64,000 nucleotides of DNA from Streptomyces griseoluteus (GTDB lineage Bacteria; Actinomycetota; Actinomycetes; Streptomycetales; Streptomycetaceae). Made by a program: the position numbers and the translations under genes. The notes under the pieces are model-generated. The model saw only the letters and a program-made list of their open reading frames with translations, searched no databases and was not told the origin of the DNA. This document shows positions 20,236 to 63,458 of this stretch, piece after piece. The DNA is taken from contig NZ_SRRU01000007.1 in assembly GCF_004784465.1 (NCBI RefSeq), forward strand, positions 63,091 to 127,090, read 5' to 3'. Position 1 is the stretch's first letter. Each line of letters starts with the position of its first letter.

Positions 20236-21585
20236 TCACGAGGTGCGGAAGTGCGGCTCCAGTCCGCGCCACACGTCGTCGTAGCCCCGCTGGAGGTGGT
20301 CCGCCCGGGCCGCCTCCGGGGTGAGGGCGATCGGCCAGCGGGTCTCGAACATGAAGGCCAGCCCGTCGTCGATCCGCTGCGGGCGCAGCTCGGCCGCGCT
20401 CGCCCGGTCGAAGGTCTCCCGGTCCGGGCCGTGCGCCGACATCATGTTGTGCAGCGAGCCCCCGCCGGGCACGAACCCCTCCGCCTTGGCGTCGTAGGCG
20501 CCCTCGATCAGGCCCATGTACTCGCTCATCACGTTCCGGTGGAAGTACGGCGGCCGGAACGTGTCCTCGCCGACCAGCCAGCGCGGGGCGAACACCACGA
20601 AGTCGGCGCCCGCCAGACCCGGAGTGTCCGAGGGGGAGGTCAGGACCGTGAAGATGGACGGGTCCGGGTGGTCGTAGGAGATGGTGCCCATCACATTGAA
20701 CCGGCGCAGGTCATAGGCGTAGGGCACATAGTTGCCGTGCCAGGCGACCACGTCGAGCGGGGAGTGGTCGTAGGTCGCCGTCCAGAGGTTGCCGCAGAAC
20801 TTGTTGACCACCTCCACCGGGCCCTCGACGTCCTCGTACGCGGCGACCGGCGCCCGGAAGTCGCGCGCGTTGGCCAGGCCGTTGGCGCCGATGGGGCCCA
20901 GGTCGGGGAGCCGGAAGGGCGCGCCATAGTTCTCGCACACATAACCCCGTGCCGAGTCGTCCAGCAGCTCCACACGGAACCGGACCCCACGGGGGATGAG
21001 GGCCACCTGTGCGGGCTCCACATGGAGGCGGCCGAACTCCGTGTGCAGCAGCAGTCCGCCCCGCTCGGGGACGAGCAGCAGCTCCCCGTCGGCGTCCGAG
21101 AACACGCGCTCCATCGAGGAGTTGGCGTGATACAGGTGCACGGCCATGCCGCTGCGCTGGGTCGCGTCGCCGTTGCCGCCCAGCGTCCACAGGCCGGCCA
21201 GGAAGTCGGTGCCCGGCAGTGGCTCGGGCAGCGGGCTCCAGCGCAGCCGGTTGGGGTCGGGCACGGTCTCGGTGAAGGGGGCGGTGCGGATCGCGCCGTT
21301 GGCGGTGCGGGTGAAGGCGGGGTGCGCGGCCGAGGGCCGGATGCGGTAGAGCCAGGAGCGGCGGTTGTGGGCGCGGGGCTCGGTGAACGCCGTCCCGCTG
21401 AGCTGTTCCGCGTACAGCCCGAGCGGTGCGCGCTGCGGTGAGTTGCGGCCCTCGGGCAGGGCGCCGGGCACCGCCTCGGAGGAGTGTTCGTTGCCGAACC
21501 CGGTCAGGTACGCCAGTGCCTCGGCGGTCTTCCGCGCTCCCCCACGCTCGAACCCGCTCGCGCGGGAGGTACCCCCATCGGTCAT
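20236..21585 (-). CDS. hmgA: Homogentisate 1,2-dioxygenase
   Basis: 449 residues, close to the usual 430-445. It opens the aromatic ring of homogentisate in tyrosine and phenylalanine catabolism, giving maleylacetoacetate. Signatures: [26 protein letters not shown] at the start, [17 protein letters not shown] and [14 protein letters not shown] at the iron site (His, Glu, His). ATG 21585 has an AAGGGAG ribosome site six bases upstream. Residues 4-17 ([14 protein letters not shown]) are encoded by an inserted-looking palindromic Streptomyces repeat that is absent from the family's normal N-terminus. A 12-bp inverted repeat lies 25 bases upstream of the start. Confidence 0.95.
21535..21577. repeat. 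Streptomyces palindromic repeat inside the hmgA 5' coding region
   Basis: Read on the minus strand, the element starts GGGGGTACCTCCCGC, continues through a GCGAGCGGG segment and ends with CGTGGGGGAG. I recognise this as the short palindrome-bearing element scattered between genes in many Streptomyces genomes. Here it is in frame and encodes 14 residues of HmgA. Confidence 0.6.
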
Positions 21586-21609
21586 GATCGCTCCCTTGCG
21601 CACGCTTCT

Positions 21610-21643: not shown

Positions 21644-21780
21644 GGGGTGTGCGCAAGAGGCGGACGCGCCCTTCACCCGGCCGGGGCGCGAGAACCGGCC
21701 GCCCGGAGGACGTACGCAGGACGTAGGGGGACGTGCGAGGACTCCCCGCCCTTCTCGGCCTGCCCGTGGCGAGGCATCAT

Positions 21781-22395
21781 GTGGCCGTGCCCCATGTGAC
21801 ATCCCTCCGCCGCGCCCCCGTTCAGCGGCGCAGCGCCGAACGGCTGACCAGAATCCTCGACGCCTGCGCCGCCCTCCTGGACGAGGTCGGCTACGACGCC
21901 CTGACCACCCGCGCGGTCGCGGAGCGGGCCGGGGTGCCCATCGGCTCGGTGTACCGCTTCTTCGGCAACAAGCGGCAGATGGCCGACGCCCTCGCCCAGC
22001 GCAACCTGCGCCACTACACCGAGCACGTCACCACCCGGCTGAAGGAGGCGCCGCCCGGCGACTGGCGGGCCGCGATGGACGTCGTCCTGGACGAGTACCT
22101 CGGTATGAAGCGCACCGCGCCCGGCTTCGCCCTGGTGGACTTCGGCAACCAGATACCGGTCGGCACCCGCGGCGCCGCGCCCAACACCCGCGTCGCCGAC
22201 CGGCTGGGGGGACTCATCGCCGGCTATCTCGGCCGCACCCCCGACGACGACCTGCGCCGCGTCCTGCTGGTGGCCGTGGAGAGCGCGGACACCCTCATCC
22301 AGCTCGCCTTCAGCACCGACCCGGACGGCGACCCGGCGATCATCCACGAGACGCGGGAGCTGCTGCGGGCCTATCTGGGCCGCGTACTCGACTGA
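21781..22395 (+). CDS. TetR-family regulator
   Basis: 204 residues. The DNA-binding domain is at about residues 12-60 (RRSAERLTRILDACAALLDEVGYDALTTRAVAERAGVPIGSVYRFFGNKRQMADAL), followed by a helical ligand domain. GTG 21781 is chosen because GAGG sits six bases upstream; GTG at 21787 and 21796 are alternatives. It is divergent from hmgA and precedes a molybdopterin oxidoreductase gene by 90 bases. Either could be its target; the inverted repeat upstream of hmgA and the palindrome at 22421-22440 are candidate sites. Confidence 0.85.
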   Translation: MAVPHVTSLRRAPVQRRSAERLTRILDACAALLDEVGYDALTTRAVAERAGVPIGSVYRFFGNKRQMADALAQRNLRHYTEHVTTRLKEAPPGDWRAAMDVVLDEYLGMKRTAPGFALVDFGNQIPVGTRGAAPNTRVADRLGGLIAGYLGRTPDDDLRRVLLVAVESADTLIQLAFSTDPDGDPAIIHETRELLRAYLGRVLD

Positions 22396-22420
22396 AACCG
22401 GCCCACAGGGCTCCCCACCA

Positions 22421-22440
22421 TGCCTACCGGTCGGTATGCT
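22421..22440. promoter_or_regulatory. TetR-type palindrome upstream of molybdopterin oxidoreductase (ATACCGACCGGT family, site 1)
   Basis: On the minus strand it reads ATACCGACCGGTAGGCA. It shares the core ATACCGACCGGT with sites at 38181 and 42053. It is about 46 bases before the GTG of the oxidoreductase gene, a position that suits repression. Confidence 0.5.
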
Positions 22441-22485
22441 CGCCCGAGCCGGTACGGCCGTGCCGTCGACCCTCCGGGAGGACCC

Positions 22486-24744
22486 GTGCCCCGCACCGCC
22501 CTGCGAATCTGCCCCCTGTGCGAGGCCACCTGCGGCCTGACCCTCACCATCGAGGGCACCCGCGTCACCGCCGCCCGGGGTGACCGGGACGACGTGTTCA
22601 GCAAGGGCTTCATCTGCCCCAAGGGCGCCTCCTTCGGCGCGCTGGACGCCGACCCCGACCGGCTGCGCACCCCGCTGGTCCGCGAGAACGGCGAGCTGCG
22701 CGAGGCCAGTTGGGAGGAGGCGTTCGACGCCGTGGCGCGCGGCCTGCGTCCCGTCGTGGAGCGGTACGGCGCCGACGCCCTCGGGGTGGTTCTCGGCAAC
22801 CCCAACGTGCACACCATGGCCGGTGCCCTCTACCCGACCGTGCTGCTCGGCGCGGTCCGCACCCGCTCCCTGTTCACCGCCTCCACGGTCGACCAGATGC
22901 CCAAGCACGTCTCCAGCGGCCTGCTGTTCGGCGACGCCAACGCCATCCCGGTGCCCGACCTGGACCACACCGACCACCTCCTGCTGATCGGCGCCAACCC
23001 GCTGGAGTCCAACGGCAGTCTGTGCACCGCGCCCGACTTCCCCGGCAAGCTGAAGGCGCTCAAGGCGCGCGGCGGACGCCTCACCGTGGTGGACCCCCGC
23101 CGCACCCGCACCGCCAAACTGGCCGACCGGCACCTCGCCATCCGGCCCGGCGCCGACGCCCTGCTCCTCGCCGCGATGACCAACGTGCTGTTCGAGGAGG
23201 GACTCGTCGACCTCGGGGACCTCGCGCCGCACGTCGACGGGCTCTCCGAACTCCGCGAAGCGATCGAGGACTTCACCCCCGAGGCCGTCGCCGGAGCCTG
23301 TGACGTCGACCCGGACACCATCCGCGCCCTCGCCCGTGAACTCGCCGCCGCCCCCACCGCCGCCGTGTACGCCCGCATCGGCAGCTGCACCGTCCCGCAC
23401 GGCACCCTGGCGAGCTGGCTGGTCGACGTGCTCAACACCCTCACCGGCAACCTCGACCGCCCCGGTGGCGCCCTCTTCCCCCAGGCCGCCACCGACCGCA
23501 CCCCCCGTCCGGCGGGCCCCGGCCGGGGCTTCTCCCTCGGCCGCTGGCACTCCCGCGTACGGCGACTGCCCGAGGCCAAGGGGGAGTTGCCGCTCTCCGC
23601 GCTCGCCGAGGAGATCGACACCGCCACCCCCGAGGGCGAGCCCCTGCGCGCGCTGATCGTGATCGCCGCCAACCCGGTGCTGTCCGCGCCCGACGGCAAC
23701 CGGCTCGACAAGGCCCTGGGCTCGCTGGACTTCATGGTCAGCGTCGACCCCTACCTCAACGAGACCTCCCGCCACGCGCACGTCGTCCTGCCCCCGCCGC
23801 CGCCCGCGCAGAGCCCGCACCACGACTTCGCCTTCAACACCCTGGCCGTCCGCAACCAGGTCCGCTACACCCGGCCCGCCGTCCCGCTGGAGCCCGGCCG
23901 GATGGCCGAGACCGAGATACTCGCCCGGCTGATCCTCGCCGCGAGCGGCATGCACGGCGCGGACCCGGCAGCCGTCGACACCATGGTGATCGACCAGACC
24001 CTCGGCAAGGCCGTCCAGGAACCCCACTCCCCGGTCCACGGCCGCGACCCGCGCGAGCTGGCCGCCCTGCTCACCGGCGCCGACGGACCCGAGCGCCGCC
24101 TCGACCTGATGCTGCGCCTCGGCCCCTACGGCGACGGCTTCGGCGCCCGCCCCGACGGGCTCACCCTCGCCCGGCTGCTCGACCACCCGCACGGCATCGA
24201 CCTCGGCCCGCTCCGCCCGCGCCTGCCGCAGCCGCTGAAGACACCCAGCGGCAGGATCGAGCTGCTGCCCGCGCCCCTCGCCGCCGACCTGCCCCGGCTG
24301 CGCGAGGCCCTGCGTGAGCGGCCCACCGGGCTCGTCCTCGTCGGCCGCCGCCATCTGCGCTCCAACAACAGCTGGCTGCACAACGTGCCCGCCCTCACCG
24401 GCGGCACCAACCGCTGCACCCTGCACCTCCACCCCGAGGACGCCGAGCGCCTCGGTGTGCGCGACGGCGAACCGGTGCGCATCAAGGGCGCCGGGGGAGA
24501 GGTGACCGCGCCCGCCGAGGTCACCGACGCCATCCGGCCCGGCGTGGTCAGCCTCCCGCACGGCTGGGGTCACAACCGTCCCGGTACCCGGCTGGGCCAC
24601 GCCGGCCGCGAACCAGGCGTCAACGTCAACCAGCTCCTCGACGGCACCCTCCTCGATCCCCTGTCCGGCAACGCCGTCCTCAACGGCATCCCGGTCCGGG
24701 TCGGCCCCGCCGGCGTCCCGGCAGCCCTGGCGCCGGAAAACTAA
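22486..24744 (+). CDS. Molybdopterin-dependent oxidoreductase with 4Fe-4S site
   Basis: 752 residues. The N-terminal cysteines C9, C12, C16 and C44 (CPLCEATC ... FICPKG) form the iron-sulfur motif of the DMSO-reductase superfamily. The central molybdopterin domain has LLLIGANPLESNGS and VVDPRRTRTAKLADRHLAIRPGADALLL, and the C-terminal MopB domain follows SNNSWLHN. There is no Tat signal, so it works in the cytoplasm. The residue before NPLESNGS gives no clear Cys/SeCys/Ser ligand assignment. Substrate unknown; formate dehydrogenase-like or other. GTG is chosen from the CGGGAG ribosome site at 22475. Confidence 0.88.
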   Translation: MPRTALRICPLCEATCGLTLTIEGTRVTAARGDRDDVFSKGFICPKGASFGALDADPDRLRTPLVRENGELREASWEEAFDAVARGLRPVVERYGADALGVVLGNPNVHTMAGALYPTVLLGAVRTRSLFTASTVDQMPKHVSSGLLFGDANAIPVPDLDHTDHLLLIGANPLESNGSLCTAPDFPGKLKALKARGGRLTVVDPRRTRTAKLADRHLAIRPGADALLLAAMTNVLFEEGLVDLGDLAPHVDGLSELREAIEDFTPEAVAGACDVDPDTIRALARELAAAPTAAVYARIGSCTVPHGTLASWLVDVLNTLTGNLDRPGGALFPQAATDRTPRPAGPGRGFSLGRWHSRVRRLPEAKGELPLSALAEEIDTATPEGEPLRALIVIAANPVLSAPDGNRLDKALGSLDFMVSVDPYLNETSRHAHVVLPPPPPAQSPHHDFAFNTLAVRNQVRYTRPAVPLEPGRMAETEILARLILAASGMHGADPAAVDTMVIDQTLGKAVQEPHSPVHGRDPRELAALLTGADGPERRLDLMLRLGPYGDGFGARPDGLTLARLLDHPHGIDLGPLRPRLPQPLKTPSGRIELLPAPLAADLPRLREALRERPTGLVLVGRRHLRSNNSWLHNVPALTGGTNRCTLHLHPEDAERLGVRDGEPVRIKGAGGEVTAPAEVTDAIRPGVVSLPHGWGHNRPGTRLGHAGREPGVNVNQLLDGTLLDPLSGNAVLNGIPVRVGPAGVPAALAPEN

Positions 24745-28405: not shown

Positions 28406-29563
28406 GTGGTGAACCTGGGCCTGAGCGAGGAACAGGCGGCCGTACGGCGACTGGCCCGTGACTTCGTGGAGCGCGAGATCGCCCCCCACGTCACCGCCTG
28501 GGACCGCGCCGAGGAGGTCGACCGGGGGATCGTGAAGAAGCTCGGCGAGGTCGGCTTCCTGGGTCTGACCATCGACGAGGAGTACGGCGGCTCCGGCGGC
28601 GACCATCTCGCGTACTGCCTGGTCACCGAGGAACTGGGGCGCGGTGACTCCTCGGTGCGCGGGATCGTCTCCGTCTCCCTCGGCCTGGTCGCCAAGTCCA
28701 TCGCGGCCTGGGGCGACGAGGAGCAGAAGCGGCGCTGGCTGCCGGGGCTGACCTCCGGCGAGCTGATCGGCTGCTTCGGCCTCACCGAGCCCGGCACCGG
28801 CTCGGACGCGGGCAACCTCACCACGCGGGCCGTACGGGAGGGTGGGGGAGACTACGTACTGAGCGGCACCAAGATGTTCATCACCAACGGCACCTGGGCC
28901 GACGTGGTGCTGCTCTTCGCCCGCTCCACCGACGCCCCCGGCCACAAGGGCGTCTCCGCCTTCCTCGTCCCCACCGACACTCCCGGCCTCACCCGCCGCA
29001 CCATCCACGGCAAGCTCGGCCTGCGCGGCCAGGCCACCGCCGAACTGGTGCTGGAGGACGTGCGGGTGCCCGCCTCCGCGATGGTCGGCGCCGAGGGCAA
29101 GGGCTTCTCCGTCGCCATGTCCGCGCTCGCCAAGGGCCGGATGTCGGTCGCCGCGGGCTGTGTCGGCATAGCCCAGGCCGCCCTGGACGCGGCCGTCCAG
29201 TACGCCGGTGAGCGCGAGCAGTTCGGCACCTCCATCGCCCGGCACCAGCTGGTGCAGGAGCTGATCAGCGACATCGCCGTGGACGTGGACGCCGCCCGGC
29301 TGCTCACCTGGCGGGTGGCCGACCTGATCGACCGGGGCGAGCCGTTCGCCACGGAGTCGTCCAAGGCCAAGCTGTTCGCCTCCGAGGCCGCCGTGCGCGC
29401 CGCCTCCAACGCCCTCCAGGTGTTCGGGGGTTACGGCTACATCGACGAGTACCCGGTGGGCAAGCTGCTGCGCGACGCCCGCGTGATGACCCTGTACGAG
29501 GGCACCAGCCAGATCCAGAAGCTCCTCATCGGCCGCGCGCTCACGGGCGTCTCCGCGTTCTGA
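28406..29563 (+). CDS. Acyl-CoA dehydrogenase
   Basis: 385 residues, the standard soluble tetrameric ACAD size. FAD/substrate motifs CFGLTEPGTGSDAGNL and KMFITNGTWADV, and the C-terminal LYEGTSQIQKLLIGRALTG holding the catalytic Glu. It performs alpha,beta-oxidation of an acyl-CoA, passing electrons to ETF. Two adjacent GTG codons (28406, 28409) are possible starts. Divergent TetR gene and palindrome suggest substrate-induced expression. Confidence 0.93.
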   Translation: MVNLGLSEEQAAVRRLARDFVEREIAPHVTAWDRAEEVDRGIVKKLGEVGFLGLTIDEEYGGSGGDHLAYCLVTEELGRGDSSVRGIVSVSLGLVAKSIAAWGDEEQKRRWLPGLTSGELIGCFGLTEPGTGSDAGNLTTRAVREGGGDYVLSGTKMFITNGTWADVVLLFARSTDAPGHKGVSAFLVPTDTPGLTRRTIHGKLGLRGQATAELVLEDVRVPASAMVGAEGKGFSVAMSALAKGRMSVAAGCVGIAQAALDAAVQYAGEREQFGTSIARHQLVQELISDIAVDVDAARLLTWRVADLIDRGEPFATESSKAKLFASEAAVRAASNALQVFGGYGYIDEYPVGKLLRDARVMTLYEGTSQIQKLLIGRALTGVSAF

Positions 29564-38067: not shown

Positions 38068-38180
38068 ACGGGACCTCCGTGAGCGCGGCGGGTGTCATGA
38101 CCACGGGGACGCTAGCGCCTGGCGGCCCGCCAGGGAACGCGCCGGACCGGGAGCCGTCGGGGATTCCCCTTCCCTCCGGC

Positions 38181-38198
38181 ATACCGACTGGTTAGTCT
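38181..38198. promoter_or_regulatory. ATACCGACYGGT palindrome (site 2) upstream of SDR gene
   Basis: ATACCGACTGGTTAGTCT, a less symmetrical version of the element at 42053-42070, located 55 bases before the SDR start. The TetR gene two positions downstream (39121) is a plausible binder. Confidence 0.5.
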
Positions 38199-38252: not shown

Positions 38253-39023
38253 GTGGAAGCCGTGCAGGACGCCGGAGTCGTCGTCACCGGGGCGGGCGGG
38301 GGGATCGGGGCGGCTCTCGCCCGCCGGTTCGCCGCCGAGGGTGCCCGGGTCGTCGTCAACGACCTCGACGCCGAGAAGGCCAAGGCGGTGGCCGAGGAGA
38401 TCGGGGGCATCGCCGTGCCCGGCGACGCCTCGGGCATCGTCGCCGAGGCCCGTGCGGCGCTCGGCGGCGCCATCGACGTGTACTGCGCCAACGCGGGCGT
38501 CGCCTTCGAGGACGGCACCCCCGGCGGCCCGCTGGACGAGCGGTCCTGGGCGGTGTCCTGGGACGTCAATGTGATGGCCCACGTCCGCGCCGCCCACGAC
38601 CTGCTGCCCGGCTGGCTGGAGCGGGGCGGCGGCCGGTTCGTCTCCACCGTCTCCGCCGCCGGACTGCTCACCATGATCGGCGCCCCCTCCTACAGCGTCA
38701 CCAAGCACGGCGCGCTGGCCTTCGCCGAGTGGCTGTCCCTCACCTACCGCCACCGGGGCGTGAAGGTGCACGCGATCTGCCCGCAGGGTGTGCGCACCGA
38801 CATGCTGTCCGCCACCGGCAGCGCCGGCGACCTGGTGCTCCAGCCGACCGCGATCGAGCCGGCCGAGGTCGCCGACGCGCTGTTCGCGGGCATGGCCGAG
38901 GACCGCTTCCTGATCCTGCCGCACCCCGAGGTGGCCGAGTACTACCAGGCCCGCGCGGCCCAGCCGGACAAGTGGCTGGGCGGCATGAACCGGCTCCAGC
39001 GCGCCTGGGAGGACTCCCGCTGA
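38253..39023 (+). CDS. Short-chain dehydrogenase/reductase
   Basis: 256 residues. NAD(P) motif VVTGAGGGIGAALARRF, NDLDAEKA, CANAGVAF, and active-site Ser with YSVTK (YxxxK). The acidic residue after beta-2 (NDLD) favours NAD(H). An AAGGAGG ribosome site precedes the GTG. It is followed by a TetR gene on the same strand (97 bases) and shares a palindromic upstream element with the ACAD11-like kinase gene, so it may catalyse a hydroxyacyl-CoA or alcohol oxidation in the same pathway (inference). Confidence 0.92.
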   Translation: MEAVQDAGVVVTGAGGGIGAALARRFAAEGARVVVNDLDAEKAKAVAEEIGGIAVPGDASGIVAEARAALGGAIDVYCANAGVAFEDGTPGGPLDERSWAVSWDVNVMAHVRAAHDLLPGWLERGGGRFVSTVSAAGLLTMIGAPSYSVTKHGALAFAEWLSLTYRHRGVKVHAICPQGVRTDMLSATGSAGDLVLQPTAIEPAEVADALFAGMAEDRFLILPHPEVAEYYQARAAQPDKWLGGMNRLQRAWEDSR

Positions 39024-39120
39024 CCCGGCCCCGCCGGGGGATGGGAAGATCCTCCGGCGGGGAACCCTTCCCGCCCCAGTGACGACAGTCGGCGACCCGA
39101 CGGAAAGGCAGGTGGCGGCA

Positions 39121-39714
39121 GTGCCCAGGAACACGGACGGAGACGCCACACCCGTCCCCCGGCGGCTGCTGGACGCCGCGACCCGCCTCTTCGCCGACCA
39201 GGGCTACGACCGCACCTCGGTGCAGGAGATCGTCGAGGCCGCCGGAGTCACCAAGGGCGCGCTCTACCACTACTTCGGCTCCAAGGACGACCTCCTGCAC
39301 GAGGTCTACGCGCGCGTGCTGCGCCTCCAGCAGGAGCGCCTGGACGCCTTCGCGGACGCCGACGAGCCGGTGGAGAAGCGGGTGCGGGACGCGGCAGCCG
39401 ACGTCGTCGTCACCACCATCGACAACCTCGACGACGCGATGATCTTCTTCCGCTCGATGCACCACCTGAGCCCCGAGAAGAACAAGCAGGTCCGCGCCGA
39501 ACGCCGTCGCTACCACGAACGGTTCCGGGCGCTCATCGAAGAGGGCCAGCGCGAGGGCGTGTTCTCCACCGCCACCCCGGCCGACCTCGTCGTGGACTAC
39601 CACTTCGGCTCGGTCCACCACCTCTCCACCTGGTACCGCCCCAAGGGCCCGCTCACCCCGCAGCAGGTCGCCGACCACCTCGCCGACCTCCTGCTGCGCG
39701 CCCTGCGCCCGTAG
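39121..39714 (+). CDS. TetR-family regulator of the SDR / ACAD11-like locus
   Basis: 197 residues from GTG 39121 (an upstream GTG at 39079 would add 14). DNA-binding domain at about residues 12-60 (RLLDAATRLFADQGYDRTSVQEIVEAAGVTKGALYHYFGSKDDLLHEVYARVL), of the FadR/KstR-like type common in acyl-CoA regulons. Flanked by SDR, acyl-CoA dehydrogenase and kinase genes. The palindromes before the SDR gene and the kinase gene are candidate targets. A strong hairpin ends the gene. Confidence 0.88.
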   Translation: MPRNTDGDATPVPRRLLDAATRLFADQGYDRTSVQEIVEAAGVTKGALYHYFGSKDDLLHEVYARVLRLQQERLDAFADADEPVEKRVRDAAADVVVTTIDNLDDAMIFFRSMHHLSPEKNKQVRAERRRYHERFRALIEEGQREGVFSTATPADLVVDYHFGSVHHLSTWYRPKGPLTPQQVADHLADLLLRALRP

Positions 39715-39768: not shown

Positions 39769-40983
39769 TTACAGGTACTTCTTCAGCTCACGCCGGGCCA
39801 GCGAGCGCTGGTGCACCTCGTCGGGGCCGTCCGCCAGCATCAGCGTGCGGGCCCCCGCGTACAGGTCGGCCAGCGGGAAGTCCTGGCTCACCCCGCCCGC
39901 GCCGTGCAACTGGATCGCCCGGTCCAGGATCTCCACCACCGCCCGCGGAGTGGCGATCTTGATGGCCTGGATCTCGGTGTGCGCGCCCCGGTTGCCGACG
40001 GTGTCCATCAGCCAGGCCGTCTTCAGCACCAGCAGCCGGAGCTGCTCCACCGCCACCCGCGCGTCCGCGATCCAGTTCTGCACCACCCCCTGCTGCGCCA
40101 GCGGCTTGCCGAACGCGGTACGCGACACCGCCCGCCGGCACATCAGCTCGATGGCCCGCTCGGCCATGCCGATCAGCCGCATGCAGTGGTGGATGCGCCC
40201 CGGACCGAGCCGGGCCTGAGCGATGGCGAAGCCGCCGCCCTCCTCGCCCACCAGGTTGGCCACCGGCACGCGCGCGTGGTCGAAGACGACCTCCGCGTGC
40301 CCGCCGTGCGAGTGGTCCTCGTACCCGAAGACCTGCATGGCCCGCTTCACGGTCACACCGGGCGTGTCCCGCGGGACCAGCACCATCGACTGCTGACGGC
40401 GCAGGTCCTCGCCGTCCGGGTCGGTCTTGCCCATCACGATGAAGATCTTGCAGTCCGGGTTCATCGCCCCGGAGATGTACCACTTGCGGCCCGTGATGAC
40501 GTATTCGTCACCGTCCCGCTCGATGTGGGTGGTGATGTTGGTGGCGTCCGAGGAGGCCACCTCCGGCTCGGTCATGGCGAACGCCGAGCGGATCTCCCCG
40601 GCCAGCAGCGGCTCCAGCCACTGCTTCTTCTGCTCGTCCGTGCCGAACTGCGCCAGCACCTCCATGTTCCCGGTGTCCGGTGCCGCGCAGTTCAGCGCGG
40701 TCGGCGCCAACTGCGGGGACCGGCCGGTGATCTCGGCCAGCGGCGCGTACTGGAGGTTGGTCAGCCCGGCACCGTACTCGGCGTCGGGCAGGAAGAGGTT
40801 CCACAGGCCCTGCCGCCGCGCCTCGGCCTTCAGCTCCTCCACCACCGCCGGGGTGTCCCAGGGGGAGTCCAGCAGCGCCCGCTGCTCCTCGGCGGTCTTC
40901 TCGGCCGGGTAGACGTACTCGTCCATGAAGGCGAGGAGACGGGTGCGGAGTTCCTCGGTGCGCGCGTCGAACGCGAAGTCCAT
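39769..40983 (-). CDS. ACAD10/11-type acyl-CoA dehydrogenase
   Basis: 404 residues. Beyond general ACAD motifs it shows segments I remember from mammalian ACAD11: CAAPDTGNMEVL, EQKKQWLEPLL, MTEPEVASSDATNI, VFGYEDHSHGGHAEV, RLGPGRIHHCMRLIGMAERA and LADGPDEVH. It therefore belongs to the ACAD10/11 subfamily, whose members act on 4-phosphorylated acyl-CoAs. Its neighbour, five bases upstream on the same strand, encodes the APH-type kinase domain that in ACAD10/11 is fused to it. The pair likely handles 4-hydroxy fatty acids. Confidence 0.93.
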   Translation of the reverse strand: MDFAFDARTEELRTRLLAFMDEYVYPAEKTAEEQRALLDSPWDTPAVVEELKAEARRQGLWNLFLPDAEYGAGLTNLQYAPLAEITGRSPQLAPTALNCAAPDTGNMEVLAQFGTDEQKKQWLEPLLAGEIRSAFAMTEPEVASSDATNITTHIERDGDEYVITGRKWYISGAMNPDCKIFIVMGKTDPDGEDLRRQQSMVLVPRDTPGVTVKRAMQVFGYEDHSHGGHAEVVFDHARVPVANLVGEEGGGFAIAQARLGPGRIHHCMRLIGMAERAIELMCRRAVSRTAFGKPLAQQGVVQNWIADARVAVEQLRLLVLKTAWLMDTVGNRGAHTEIQAIKIATPRAVVEILDRAIQLHGAGGVSQDFPLADLYAGARTLMLADGPDEVHQRSLARRELKKYL

Positions 40984-40988
40984 CTGCT

Positions 40989-42011
40989 CTAGCCTTCCTG
41001 AAGCGTGGTCAGTCCGTGGTCGATGAAGACGGGCACCAGGTCCCCGATGCGGTCGAAGCCGCTGCCCACCGTCTGGCCGAGGGTGTACCGGTAGTGGATG
41101 CCCTCCAGGATCACGGCGAGCTTGAACCAGGCGAACGCGGTGTACCAGTTGACGTCCGAGACATCGCGGCCGGAGCGCTCCGCGTACCGCTCGATCAGCT
41201 CGGCGGGCGTGGGGTGGCCGGGGGCCTCTGCGGTGGTGGAGACGGGGGAGTGGGCCATCCCGAGCGGCTGGCTGTACATCACCAGCAGGCCGAGGTCGGT
41301 GAGCGGGTCGCCGAGGGTCGACATCTCCCAGTCGAGGATGGCCTCGATCCGGTCGCCCTCGCCGATCAGCACGTTGTCCAGGCGGTAGTCGCCGTGCACC
41401 ACGGCCGGCGCCGGGGAGGTGGGCAGCGAGCGGCCGAGGGCCGCGTGCAGCTCGTCCACGCCCGCCAGTTCGCGGTTGCGGGAGGCGTCGAGCTGCTTGC
41501 CCCAGCGGCGGAGCTGGCGGTCCAGGAAGCCCTCGGGCCGGCCGAAGTCGGCGAGCCCCACCTCGGCGGGGTCCACCGCGTGCAGCTCGACGAGGGTGTC
41601 CACCAGCGACAGCACCGCGTTCCGGGTGCGCTCCGCACCGAGCGGCGCGAGCTGGTCCGCCGTGCGGTACGGGGTACCCGCGACGAACTCCATCACGTAG
41701 AACGGGGCGCCCAGCACCTCGTCGTCCTCGCACAGCAGCACCGGCCGGGGGACCGGCACGCGGGTGGGGTGCAGGGCGCTGATCACCCGGTGCTCGCGGC
41801 GCATGTCGTGCGCGGTGGCCAGGACGTGGCCCAGCGGCGGGCGCCGGACGACCCAGCGGGAGGTGCCGTCGGTGACGGCGTAGGTGAGGTTCGACCGTCC
41901 GCCCTCGATCAGCCTGCCGGTCAGCGGACCGGTCACCAGGCCGGGCCGCTCACGGTCGAGCAGCGCGCGCAGCCGGTCGAGATCGAGTCCGGGCGGGTGG
42001 TCGGCGCTCAT
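40989..42011 (-). CDS. APH-family kinase, ACAD10/11 N-terminal-like / LvaA-like
   Basis: 340 residues. Aminoglycoside-phosphotransferase fold: N-lobe with RLIEGGRSNLTYAVTDG, catalytic VVHGDYRLDNVLIGEGDRIEAILDWEMSTLGDPLTDLGLL (HGD...N and IDWE/D motifs). Closest in texture to the kinase domain of ACAD10/11 and to LvaA, which phosphorylates 4-hydroxyacyl-CoA in levulinate breakdown, rather than to drug-resistance kinases. Five bases separate it from the dehydrogenase, so the two form one operon. AGGAGTG precedes the ATG. A near-perfect 18-bp palindrome lies 42 bases upstream. Confidence 0.88.
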   Translation of the reverse strand: MSADHPPGLDLDRLRALLDRERPGLVTGPLTGRLIEGGRSNLTYAVTDGTSRWVVRRPPLGHVLATAHDMRREHRVISALHPTRVPVPRPVLLCEDDEVLGAPFYVMEFVAGTPYRTADQLAPLGAERTRNAVLSLVDTLVELHAVDPAEVGLADFGRPEGFLDRQLRRWGKQLDASRNRELAGVDELHAALGRSLPTSPAPAVVHGDYRLDNVLIGEGDRIEAILDWEMSTLGDPLTDLGLLVMYSQPLGMAHSPVSTTAEAPGHPTPAELIERYAERSGRDVSDVNWYTAFAWFKLAVILEGIHYRYTLGQTVGSGFDRIGDLVPVFIDHGLTTLQEG

Positions 42012-42052: not shown

Positions 42053-42070
42053 ATGCCGACCGGTCGGTAT
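42053..42070. promoter_or_regulatory. Near-perfect 18-bp palindrome (site 3) upstream of kinase/dehydrogenase operon
   Basis: ATGCCGACCGGTCGGTAT: the inner 12 bases CCGACCGGTCGG are a perfect palindrome and only one outer pair is mismatched. It is the best-formed member of the three-site set and probably the TetR operator for the operon. Confidence 0.65.
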
Positions 42071-42285
42071 GCCGTCCAGTGTGTGCACCGTAAAGCGTGC
42101 GCCGACGTGACCGGACACACGCCGGGCGCCGCGTGTCCGGCGTGGTCGCGGAGGGCTCGGCGGGTGGGGGCGGTGACGACGGACAGGCTATGCGTGAACG
42201 CCGCGAACCGCCCGTATCGGGACACCGGGGTTGCGCGGCTGGTGAACACCCTTGTACGCGTCCGCGAAGATCGGCAAGACACCCC

Positions 42286-62867: not shown

Positions 62868-63458
62868 GTGTCCCGTCAGGTGTTCCTCTACGACCCGCCG
62901 GACCGCTTCGTGGCCGGCACGGTCGGACTGCCCGGACGCCGTACGTTCTTCCTCCAGGCCACCGCGGGCCCGCGGGTGACCAGCGTGGCCCTGGAGAAGG
63001 CCCAGGTCGCCGCGCTCGCCGAACGCATGGACGAGCTCCTCGACGAGGTCGTGCGGCGCAGCGGCGGCAATGCCGCGGTGCCCGCCGTCGCCCCGGCCGA
63101 GATCGCCGACACCGGCCCGCTGGACAGCCCCGTCGAGGAGGAGTTCCGCGTCGGCACCATGGCGCTCGCCTGGGACGGCGAGGAACAGCGCATGGTCGTC
63201 GAGGCCCAGGCCCTGGTGGAACTGGACGCCGAGACCGCCGAGGACCTCGCCGAGGCCGAGGAACGCCTCCTCCAGGACGAGGAGAACGGACCCCCGATGC
63301 TGCGGGTCCGGCTCACCGGCGCGCAGGCCAGGGCCTTCGCCAAGCGCGCCCTGGACGTCGTCAACGCCGGGCGGCCGCCGTGCCCGCTGTGCAGCCTCCC
63401 GCTCGACCCGGAAGGACACGTATGTCCGCGCCAGAACGGATACCGCCGGGGAGCGTGA
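62868..63458 (+). CDS. DUF3090-family protein
   Basis: 196 residues. Starts SRQVFLYDPPDRFVAGTVGLPGRRTFFLQA and ends with a zinc-ribbon-like CPLCSLPLDPEGHVCPRQNGY. Actinobacterial family of unknown function found between the histidine phosphatase and SCO1664-type genes. The Cys set (CxxC ... C) probably binds zinc. The next gene starts inside its last 37 bases, so the block is co-translated. GTG is chosen from alignment to the family start. Confidence 0.93.
   Translation: MSRQVFLYDPPDRFVAGTVGLPGRRTFFLQATAGPRVTSVALEKAQVAALAERMDELLDEVVRRSGGNAAVPAVAPAEIADTGPLDSPVEEEFRVGTMALAWDGEEQRMVVEAQALVELDAETAEDLAEAEERLLQDEENGPPMLRVRLTGAQARAFAKRALDVVNAGRPPCPLCSLPLDPEGHVCPRQNGYRRGA

Follow-up and report, generated by a model that had tools for sequence, protein, structure and literature searches.

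A kinase and ACAD10/11-type dehydrogenase gene pair in Streptomyces griseoluteus, predicted to belong to a TetR-controlled module for 4-hydroxy-acid degradation

A stretch of 64,000 nucleotides from Streptomyces griseoluteus (assembly GCF_004784465.1, contig NZ_SRRU01000007.1, forward-strand positions 63,091 to 127,090), referred to below as the window, carries adjacent genes for an APH-fold kinase and an acyl-CoA dehydrogenase (ACAD), two protein types that are fused in animal ACAD11. The locus raises the question of what these genes do together, and with which neighbours. The original prediction, made from the sequence alone, gave correct coordinates and reading frames for both genes and read them, with a nearby SDR family gene and a shared operator, as a "split ACAD11" serving the degradation of levulinate or other 4-hydroxy acids. 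The present analysis favours, with a probability of roughly 0.77, a TetR-controlled module that would feed 4-hydroxyacyl-CoAs into beta-oxidation. This reading is preferred because the dehydrogenase is closest to ACAD11 by sequence, fold, tree position and invariant residues, because ACAD11 is among the solved relatives of the kinase, whose catalytic residues are also invariant, and because both domains and separate bacterial orthologs have been shown to perform the reactions (PMC12440821, PMC11342911). It also draws on the constant adjacency of the two genes, their common operator, an acyl-CoA synthetase gene in most related loci, a second cluster with the same operator and a cluster in Tsukamurella.

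The dehydrogenase and its kinase partner

The chemistry of mammalian ACAD10 and ACAD11 was assigned only in 2024-2025. As reported, the kinase domain acts first, phosphorylating 4-hydroxyacyl-CoA, and from the product the ACAD domain forms 2-enoyl-CoA without an electron acceptor; Burkholderia proteins can replace either ACAD11 domain, and the bacterial evidence in these reports comes from Pseudomonas and Burkholderia (PMC11342911, PMC12440821). ACAD11 is distinguished by the catalytic D753 and by R626, H634 and R637 (the HCMR motif). In modelling, the latter three residues bind the 4-phosphate, and substituting them abolishes the ACAD step (PMC12440821).

The window dehydrogenase carries the full set of these residues. 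In its alignment with mouse ACAD11 (56% identity over 395 aligned positions), R258-L-G-P-G-R-I-H-H-C-M-R269 and D385 correspond to R626/R631/H634/R637/D753, the chain letters of the mouse protein being numbered one behind the numbers of PMC12440821. H266 and R269 thus lie in the HCMR motif, and D385, an Asp in place of Glu, aligns to the position mutated to N in 8v3v. The motif with R258, H266 and R269, together with D385, is invariant in all 43 rows of an alignment made of the window protein and 42 of 78 usable proteins, picked to span the named loci. The ACAD10/11-specific segments recognised by the original prediction are real. A sequence search of the PDB placed mouse ACAD11 8v3u (4.2e-140), human ACAD11 2wbi and 4hr3 from Mycobacterium abscessus at the top, ordinary ACADs coming next, near 1e-41. 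The structural model (mean pLDDT, the predicted local distance difference test, 93.0) matched 4hr3 with Z 54.7, 2wbi with 53.6 and 8v3u with 53.2; ordinary ACADs among the fold matches listed did not exceed Z 41.4, and the ACAD11 entry 8v3v scored 39.7 over 325 residues.

For phylogenetic analysis, 57 loci (the window and L036-L091) were searched, and 65 ACADs were found in 53 of them; two rows of L085 were left out because this locus overlaps L070, and mouse ACAD11 was added, giving 64 rows. The window ACAD and mouse ACAD11 fall within one group of 53 rows with support of 100/100, on a tree in which the tool flags long branches, mouse ACAD11 included. One deep relative joins outside this group (100/99), and ten ordinary ACADs, including one from the window itself (row ending at 29560), fall elsewhere. 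Clustering with ordinary ACADs had been named in the original prediction as the result that would speak against it; the observed grouping is with ACAD11. The full residue set is present in 51 of 54 ACAD11-type rows versus none of the ten ordinary rows from the same loci, the exceptions being L064 (HAMR), L070 and L086 (both YAMR). An ordinary ACAD is ruled out by residues, tree and predicted fold, and the window dehydrogenase is of the ACAD10/11 type. It is predicted, most likely, to convert 4-phosphoacyl-CoA to 2-enoyl-CoA by phosphate elimination. The YAMR enzymes, found in two Streptomyces (L070 8386-9598 and L086 17298-18569), adjoin divergent kinases (30-32% identity), while a deep ACAD relative in L086 (5183-6415, 36% identity) has the complete ACAD11 residue set and adjoins another kinase (53%).

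The assignment of the partner to the APH fold is borne out by its Pfam match (Table 1) and by ACAD11 being among its best solved relatives. The PDB search returned 9o56 (8.7e-70), 3dxp (8.6e-52) and mouse ACAD11 (about 1e-50, 37% identity over 306 positions), with 9fsg reaching only 3.3e-11. All 29 rows of an alignment comprising the window kinase and 28 of 41 usable kinases keep H206, D208, N213, the second Asp D227, R72 with E73, and R165 unchanged. Of the two Arg residues described as binding CoA in ACAD11, R86 beside the alphaC Glu and R176, the second aligns with R165; R72 adjoins E73, and the published number R86 falls off any Arg in the chain letters. The model has a mean pLDDT of 93.1; its nearest fold is 3dxp (Z 34.3), followed by the 25-hydroxysteroid kinase 9ft5/9fsg and Rv3168 (Z 28-29), with ACAD11 at 21.4 over 226 residues. 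The best sequence match, 9o56, is not among the 50 fold matches listed. Most likely, this kinase phosphorylates 4-hydroxyacyl-CoA, as predicted from its residues and relatives, and the Streptomyces pair very likely performs the same chemistry as the two ACAD11 domains, judging from residues and family.

Since Pfam gives only Acyl-CoA_dh and APH domains, one might see here an ordinary dehydrogenase of fatty acyl-CoAs that happens to lie beside an unrelated kinase of the aminoglycoside-resistance kind. This is highly improbable in view of the ACAD10/11 residues and tree position, the adjacency of the genes in all 27 Streptomyces loci and their common operator. The best NCBIfam resistance kinase reaches 37.6 bits against a cut-off of 205; all resistance families fall far under their curated cut-offs, and an aminoglycoside-resistance APH is ruled out. 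It is also conceivable that the same phosphorylate-then-eliminate chemistry acts on another hydroxylated CoA ester, such as a steroid or natural-product side chain, as the steroid kinase among the nearest folds and the occurrence of the pair near an AfsA-like gene on a Streptomyces plasmid might suggest. However, the kinase is much nearer in sequence to ACAD11, 3dxp and 9o56 (E 1e-49 to 1e-69) than to 9fsg, and the ACAD keeps the complete 4-phosphate site, which makes such a substrate unlikely.

Gene order and operators in Streptomyces

Two operons converge at the locus (Table 1), one with the SDR and TetR genes facing the other with the ACAD and kinase genes. The synteny of kinase, dehydrogenase and SDR was followed in 27 Streptomyces loci, namely the window and 26 relatives. 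In every one of them the kinase and ACAD genes are same-strand neighbours, with a spacing of 3-84 bp (5 bp in the window), as expected of the operon partners that they had been proposed to be; TetR likewise occurs in 27, while 25 keep the SDR and 20 hold an acyl-CoA synthetase. An ACAD ortholog of at least 82% identity was found in 36 of 37 Streptomyces genomes, this one included (in G012 matched over residues 66-403), and none in the remaining genome, G035.

When one mismatch is allowed, the operator pattern CATACCGACYGGTYRGY precedes the kinase in all 27 loci and the SDR in every one of the 25 that retain this gene; before the ACAD it occurs in none of the 27, even with up to three mismatches allowed. 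G018, which has lost both SDR and synthetase, carries the operator 55 bp before TetR. The 6.84-Mb genome studied here contains exactly two exact matches, one before the SDR and one before the kinase, compared with none for the reversed-pattern control. Exact matches occur in 36 of 37 Streptomyces genomes, exactly two of them in 28, while the reversed pattern gives zero in all; a general motif of many genes is thereby ruled out. By one putative operator type the SDR-TetR operon thus belongs with the kinase-ACAD operon, in agreement with the shared operator and the inclusion of the SDR in the original prediction. Each of the 37 genomes has one TetR ortholog (83-100% identity).

Table 1. Features of the S. 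griseoluteus locus in window coordinates
Feature	Position	Strand	Description
Putative TetR-type operator CATACCGACTGGTTAGT	38180..38196	+	upstream of SDR-TetR operon; exact pattern match
SDR family oxidoreductase	38253..39023	+	256 aa, GTG start; Pfam adh_short 2.3e-34
24-bp remnant of 3' end of deleted acyl-CoA synthetase gene	39042..39065	+	alignment with 5 relatives
TetR family regulator	39121..39714	+	197 aa (211 aa from alternative GTG at 39079); TetR_N 4.6e-23, TetR_C_24 1.1e-30
ACAD10/11 (LvaC)-type acyl-CoA dehydrogenase, predicted 4-phosphoacyl-CoA phosphate-eliminating flavoenzyme	39769..40983	-	404 aa, ATG start; Pfam Acyl-CoA_dh domains
Codon of D385, predicted catalytic base	39829..39831	-	mouse ACAD11 D753
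Codons of R258-LGPGRIHHCM-R269, phosphate-binding helix motif	40177..40212	-	R626, R631, HCMR of mouse ACAD11
APH-fold kinase, predicted 4-hydroxyacyl-CoA kinase	40989..42011	-	340 aa, ATG start; Pfam APH 1.2e-57
Codons of kinase catalytic loop H206-G-D208-YRLD-N213	41373..41396	-	mouse ACAD11 D220, N225
Putative TetR-type operator CATACCGACCGGTCGGC	42055..42071	-	upstream of kinase-ACAD operon; exact pattern match

A possible ligand of the TetR is suggested by PaaR of Burkholderia cenocepacia, a TetR repressor that is released by phenylacetyl-CoA and has the tested operator ACCGACCGGTCGGT (PMC2770484, PMC9493321). The kinase-side site shares 13 of the 14 bases of this operator core, its last base being changed; the SDR-side site shares fewer. 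PaaR, as described there, controls phenylacetate genes, whereas exact operators here stand only at the two operons, and the likeness concerns the operator alone. Because of this likeness and the release of PaaR by phenylacetyl-CoA, an acyl-CoA may be the ligand of the window TetR.

Among 80 named loci, the 13 with a TetR of at least 60% identity all hold the operator (at most one mismatch), versus 8 of 67 without such a TetR, with kinship uncorrected. With one mismatch allowed, the true pattern matched 35 times in these loci and the reversed pattern 0 times; with two allowed, the counts were 52 and 3. Sites with at most two mismatches were present in 20 of 125 intervals upstream of an ACAD or kinase gene, and 23 more in the other 1.17 Mb. 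All five loci from Bacilli among the 80 carry such sites, four directly upstream of the ACAD; in a sixth, on a Cytobacillus plasmid, one such site lies upstream of an SDR gene preceding the ACAD. Four TetRs of Bacilli have a recognition helix similar to that of the Streptomyces TetR (VTKG, then A/T, L/F and Y), unlike unrelated TetRs of the named loci. A tentative proposal, somewhat short of even odds, is that a dedicated acyl-CoA-sensing TetR repressor with one operator type governs 4-hydroxy-acid degradation of the ACAD10/11 type in Streptomyces, some other Actinobacteria and Bacillus alike. If so, this TetR would be a bacterial genetic sensor for 4-hydroxyacyl-CoA that also commands the second cluster of three Streptomyces described below.

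A few operator-like sites stand apart from the module. Exact operators at L088 5235 (G013) and L089 5086 (G011 contig 9) lie between open reading frames (ORFs) without evident link to the pathway, and not in copies of the cluster; a further exact match occurs in G017 contig 488. A one-mismatch site in L033 (1501-1517; G000:C6:34250) lies upstream of an ORF read as transporter-like. In the window itself, a third operator-like palindrome with one mismatch (22419-22438) follows a TetR ORF (21733-22395), lies where a molybdopterin oxidoreductase-like ORF (22420-24744) begins and neighbours a homogentisate dioxygenase-like ORF (20236-21603), these names being given by ORF reading; it is probably the site of another TetR.

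The synthetase gene is placed between SDR and TetR wherever gene positions were read. Besides the window, it is missing from the loci of G022, G014, G027, G004, G015 and G018. G012, one of the 20 loci counted as having it, keeps only the 3' part there, the 5' part and an operator being about 1.79 Mb away; in this rearrangement (L087 4958, L062) the operator and 5' part are at 8.887 Mb, and the 3' part lies at 7.10 Mb beside TetR, ACAD and kinase. In the window, the gap between SDR and TetR can be aligned with the last part of the synthetase gene plus the pre-TetR spacer of five relatives, with scores of 69-94, compared with maxima of 39-43 in 200 shuffles each. The gene was therefore deleted, leaving a scar that is clearest in the 24-bp remnant.

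Such a deletion, and the six other loci likewise without the gene, could mean that the module is decaying and no longer used in this strain. Against this, the remaining four genes are open and 85-94% identical to those of the nearest relatives, both operators are exact, and Pseudomonas putida without lvaE is reported still to grow on levulinate (PMC6692424). Decay is accordingly considered very unlikely, and another synthetase could serve here.

Second clusters and occurrence in other bacteria

In three Streptomyces genomes (G001, G024 and G030), a thiolase gene has a further exact operator in front of it. The second clusters at these sites have in common the thiolase, a HAD protein, an ACAD11-type gene (60-61% to that of the window) and an SDR. 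The G001 cluster also contains an SDR and an enoyl-CoA hydratase; that of G030, which has an enoyl-CoA hydratase as well, is alone in carrying an APH kinase, two synthetases, a nitronate-monooxygenase-like gene and a thioesterase. By gene content alone, this set recalls animal ACAD10, with its HAD-kinase-ACAD order.

ACAD11-type genes were also found in 123 plasmid records (E 1e-100). In the seven plasmid stretches that were read, from Tsukamurella, two Streptomyces, Bosea, Cytobacillus, Azoarcus and Sphingobium, the kinase adjoins the ACAD or lies within about 3.5 kb of it in every case. The Tsukamurella cluster brings together kinase, ACAD, HAD phosphatase, a phosphotriesterase-like protein and a ligase; the phosphotriesterase-like protein, if it is a lactonase, would presumably fit lactone degradation. 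On a plasmid of Streptomyces sp. NBC_00388 (L077, 5853-8215), the kinase and ACAD11-type pair is near AfsA-like, ketosynthase III, HAD and tautomerase genes and may have been drawn into a biosynthetic cluster. On a linear plasmid of Streptomyces cathayae (L081, 6915-10779), transposase genes flank a kinase-ACAD pair and an SDR, both of which have their own operator (0 and 1 mismatch); no TetR is annotated in the stretch.

Across the 80 named loci, some of whose stretches are incomplete, a kinase is within about 8 kb of the ACAD in 46. In Pseudomonas, an ACAD11-type gene is present in 39 of 40 genomes and the kinase somewhere in 117 of 119. Around eight further Pseudomonas kinases, seven loci contain a more distant ACAD (35-43%); in one genome (G134, L247 179-3169), a histidine phosphatase, a kinase (35%) and an ACAD (54%) lie in a row, with no SDR match. 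Separate kinase and ACAD genes, adjacent or close, thus occur in Actinobacteria, Proteobacteria and Bacilli, while the animal gene is a fusion; the word "split" is a misnomer, since separate genes are usual in bacteria.

Several observations weigh against the proposed module. The synthetase of the operon has no ortholog in this genome (best match 35%, compared with 70-100% for the orthologs in G033, G011 and G031). G035 keeps the TetR (83%) and has neither ACAD ortholog nor operator match, which counts against strict pairing; because it is kept there without them, the TetR may have another role or be a relic in this genome. In the second-cluster stretches of G001 and G024 no kinase was found; G009 (L091) has most of the gene set seen in G030, the kinase included (matched to residue 233 of 356), and no exact operator. 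The operator is also missing from paralogous loci of a different type (L085 and L086, in G022 and G011). A kinase beside the ACAD was detected in none of 16 Pseudomonas loci examined, and biochemistry or growth data for any Streptomyces copy were not found in the literature. The G035 TetR (L255 9692-10312) lies near a homogentisate dioxygenase-like ORF, with no SDR, kinase or ACAD match in the surrounding 19.9 kb; beyond these, G035 was searched for ACAD and operator only.

The proposed pathway and known systems

The kinase, ACAD and SDR genes and their apparent common repressor switch probably form a 4-hydroxy-acid degradation pathway. A 4-hydroxy (or 4-oxo) acid would first be joined to CoA as a thioester; most Streptomyces would use the operon's own synthetase for this, and the present strain, having lost that gene, would rely on another synthetase. 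The kinase would then phosphorylate the 4-hydroxyl, as its family suggests, and the ACAD would remove the phosphate and rearrange the product to 2-enoyl-CoA with no net oxidation. By residue identity with mouse ACAD11, D385 would serve as the base while R258, H266 and R269 hold the phosphate. The SDR could act before these steps (4-oxo to 4-hydroxy) or after them (3-hydroxy to 3-oxo), and the TetR would bind the operators of both operons until released by an acyl-CoA of the pathway.

The SDR has a TGxxxGxG motif at 12 and YxxxK at 147, and is likely a 4-oxo/4-hydroxy or 3-hydroxyacyl-CoA dehydrogenase. Its best solved match is the (3R)-hydroxyacyl-CoA dehydrogenase 2et6 (2.3e-29), and for this reason it may act after the kinase and ACAD. 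The gene types of the module match LvaE, LvaD, LvaA and LvaC of the levulinate pathway as described in PMC6692424, and synthetase and SDR occur together in most Streptomyces loci; the pathway could accordingly be one for levulinate specifically, with the SDR as levulinyl-CoA reductase between synthetase and kinase. Several details speak against this. The 5-bp gap between kinase and ACAD leaves no LvaB between them in the window (the rest of the genome was not searched for LvaB), the SDR is only 25% identical over 190 aa to that of the lva-like Azoarcus cluster, used as a proxy for LvaD, and the regulator of the cluster is by Pfam a TetR instead of a sigma54-type LvaR. The LvaE-type synthetase, moreover, is absent from the operon of this strain. 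A levulinate pathway proper is therefore doubtful and levulinate is not favoured as the substrate; since LvaB is lacking between the two genes, the regulator differs, and the SDR has low identity to the proxy and best matches a (3R)-hydroxyacyl-CoA dehydrogenase, the reading is kept at the class 4-hydroxyacyl-CoA, without naming one acid. The original prediction thus stands in its ACAD10/11-type chemistry, its operon partnership and its inclusion of the SDR, but not in the detailed parallel to levulinate or in calling the genes split.

With its ACAD present in 36 of 37 Streptomyces genomes searched and under a tight switch, the module would be a tractable genetic system for the substrate question. 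The separate Streptomyces proteins offer stand-alone enzymes for the flavin mechanism, with the YAMR and HAMR forms as natural variants of the phosphate site, and the TetR is a candidate 4-hydroxyacyl-CoA biosensor, useful for levulinate and gamma-lactone bioconversion. The analysis also helps to tell such genes from those annotated as ordinary beta-oxidation or aminoglycoside-resistance functions. In the open-licence literature searched, neither a Streptomyces 4-hydroxy-acid route nor this operator for ACAD11-type genes was found described. The chemistry is already known in other organisms; the regulon, the loss of the synthetase and an operator common with Bacilli are the additions made here.

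Compared with mammalian ACAD11 and ACAD10 (8v3u, 8v3v, 2wbi), the window pair has the same phosphate-site and catalytic residues, but consists of two genes instead of a kinase-ACAD fusion and is accompanied by a TetR gene and operators; the HAD domain fused in ACAD10 is not joined to either protein of the pair. The nearest solved fold to the window ACAD, 4hr3, is that of a putative acyl-CoA dehydrogenase with 54% identity. LvaA and LvaC of P. putida are likewise encoded by separate kinase and ACAD genes and have the ACAD10/11-type motif (PMC12440821, PMC6692424). The lva operon described there also shares its SDR type with the window and its synthetase type with the Streptomyces relatives, and differs in having LvaB and the sigma54-type LvaR, where the window cluster has a TetR, no LvaB between kinase and ACAD, no synthetase and, by the Azoarcus proxy, a different SDR. 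Closer in layout are the lva cluster of P. citronellolis LA18T, as reported in PMC6692424, and the lva-like cluster of Azoarcus KH32C (L080), in both of which kinase, ACAD and SDR occur together without LvaB; both carry a histidine phosphatase gene that the window cluster lacks. The P. citronellolis cluster is resembled by the gene row of the Pseudomonas locus L247, which is without an SDR match.

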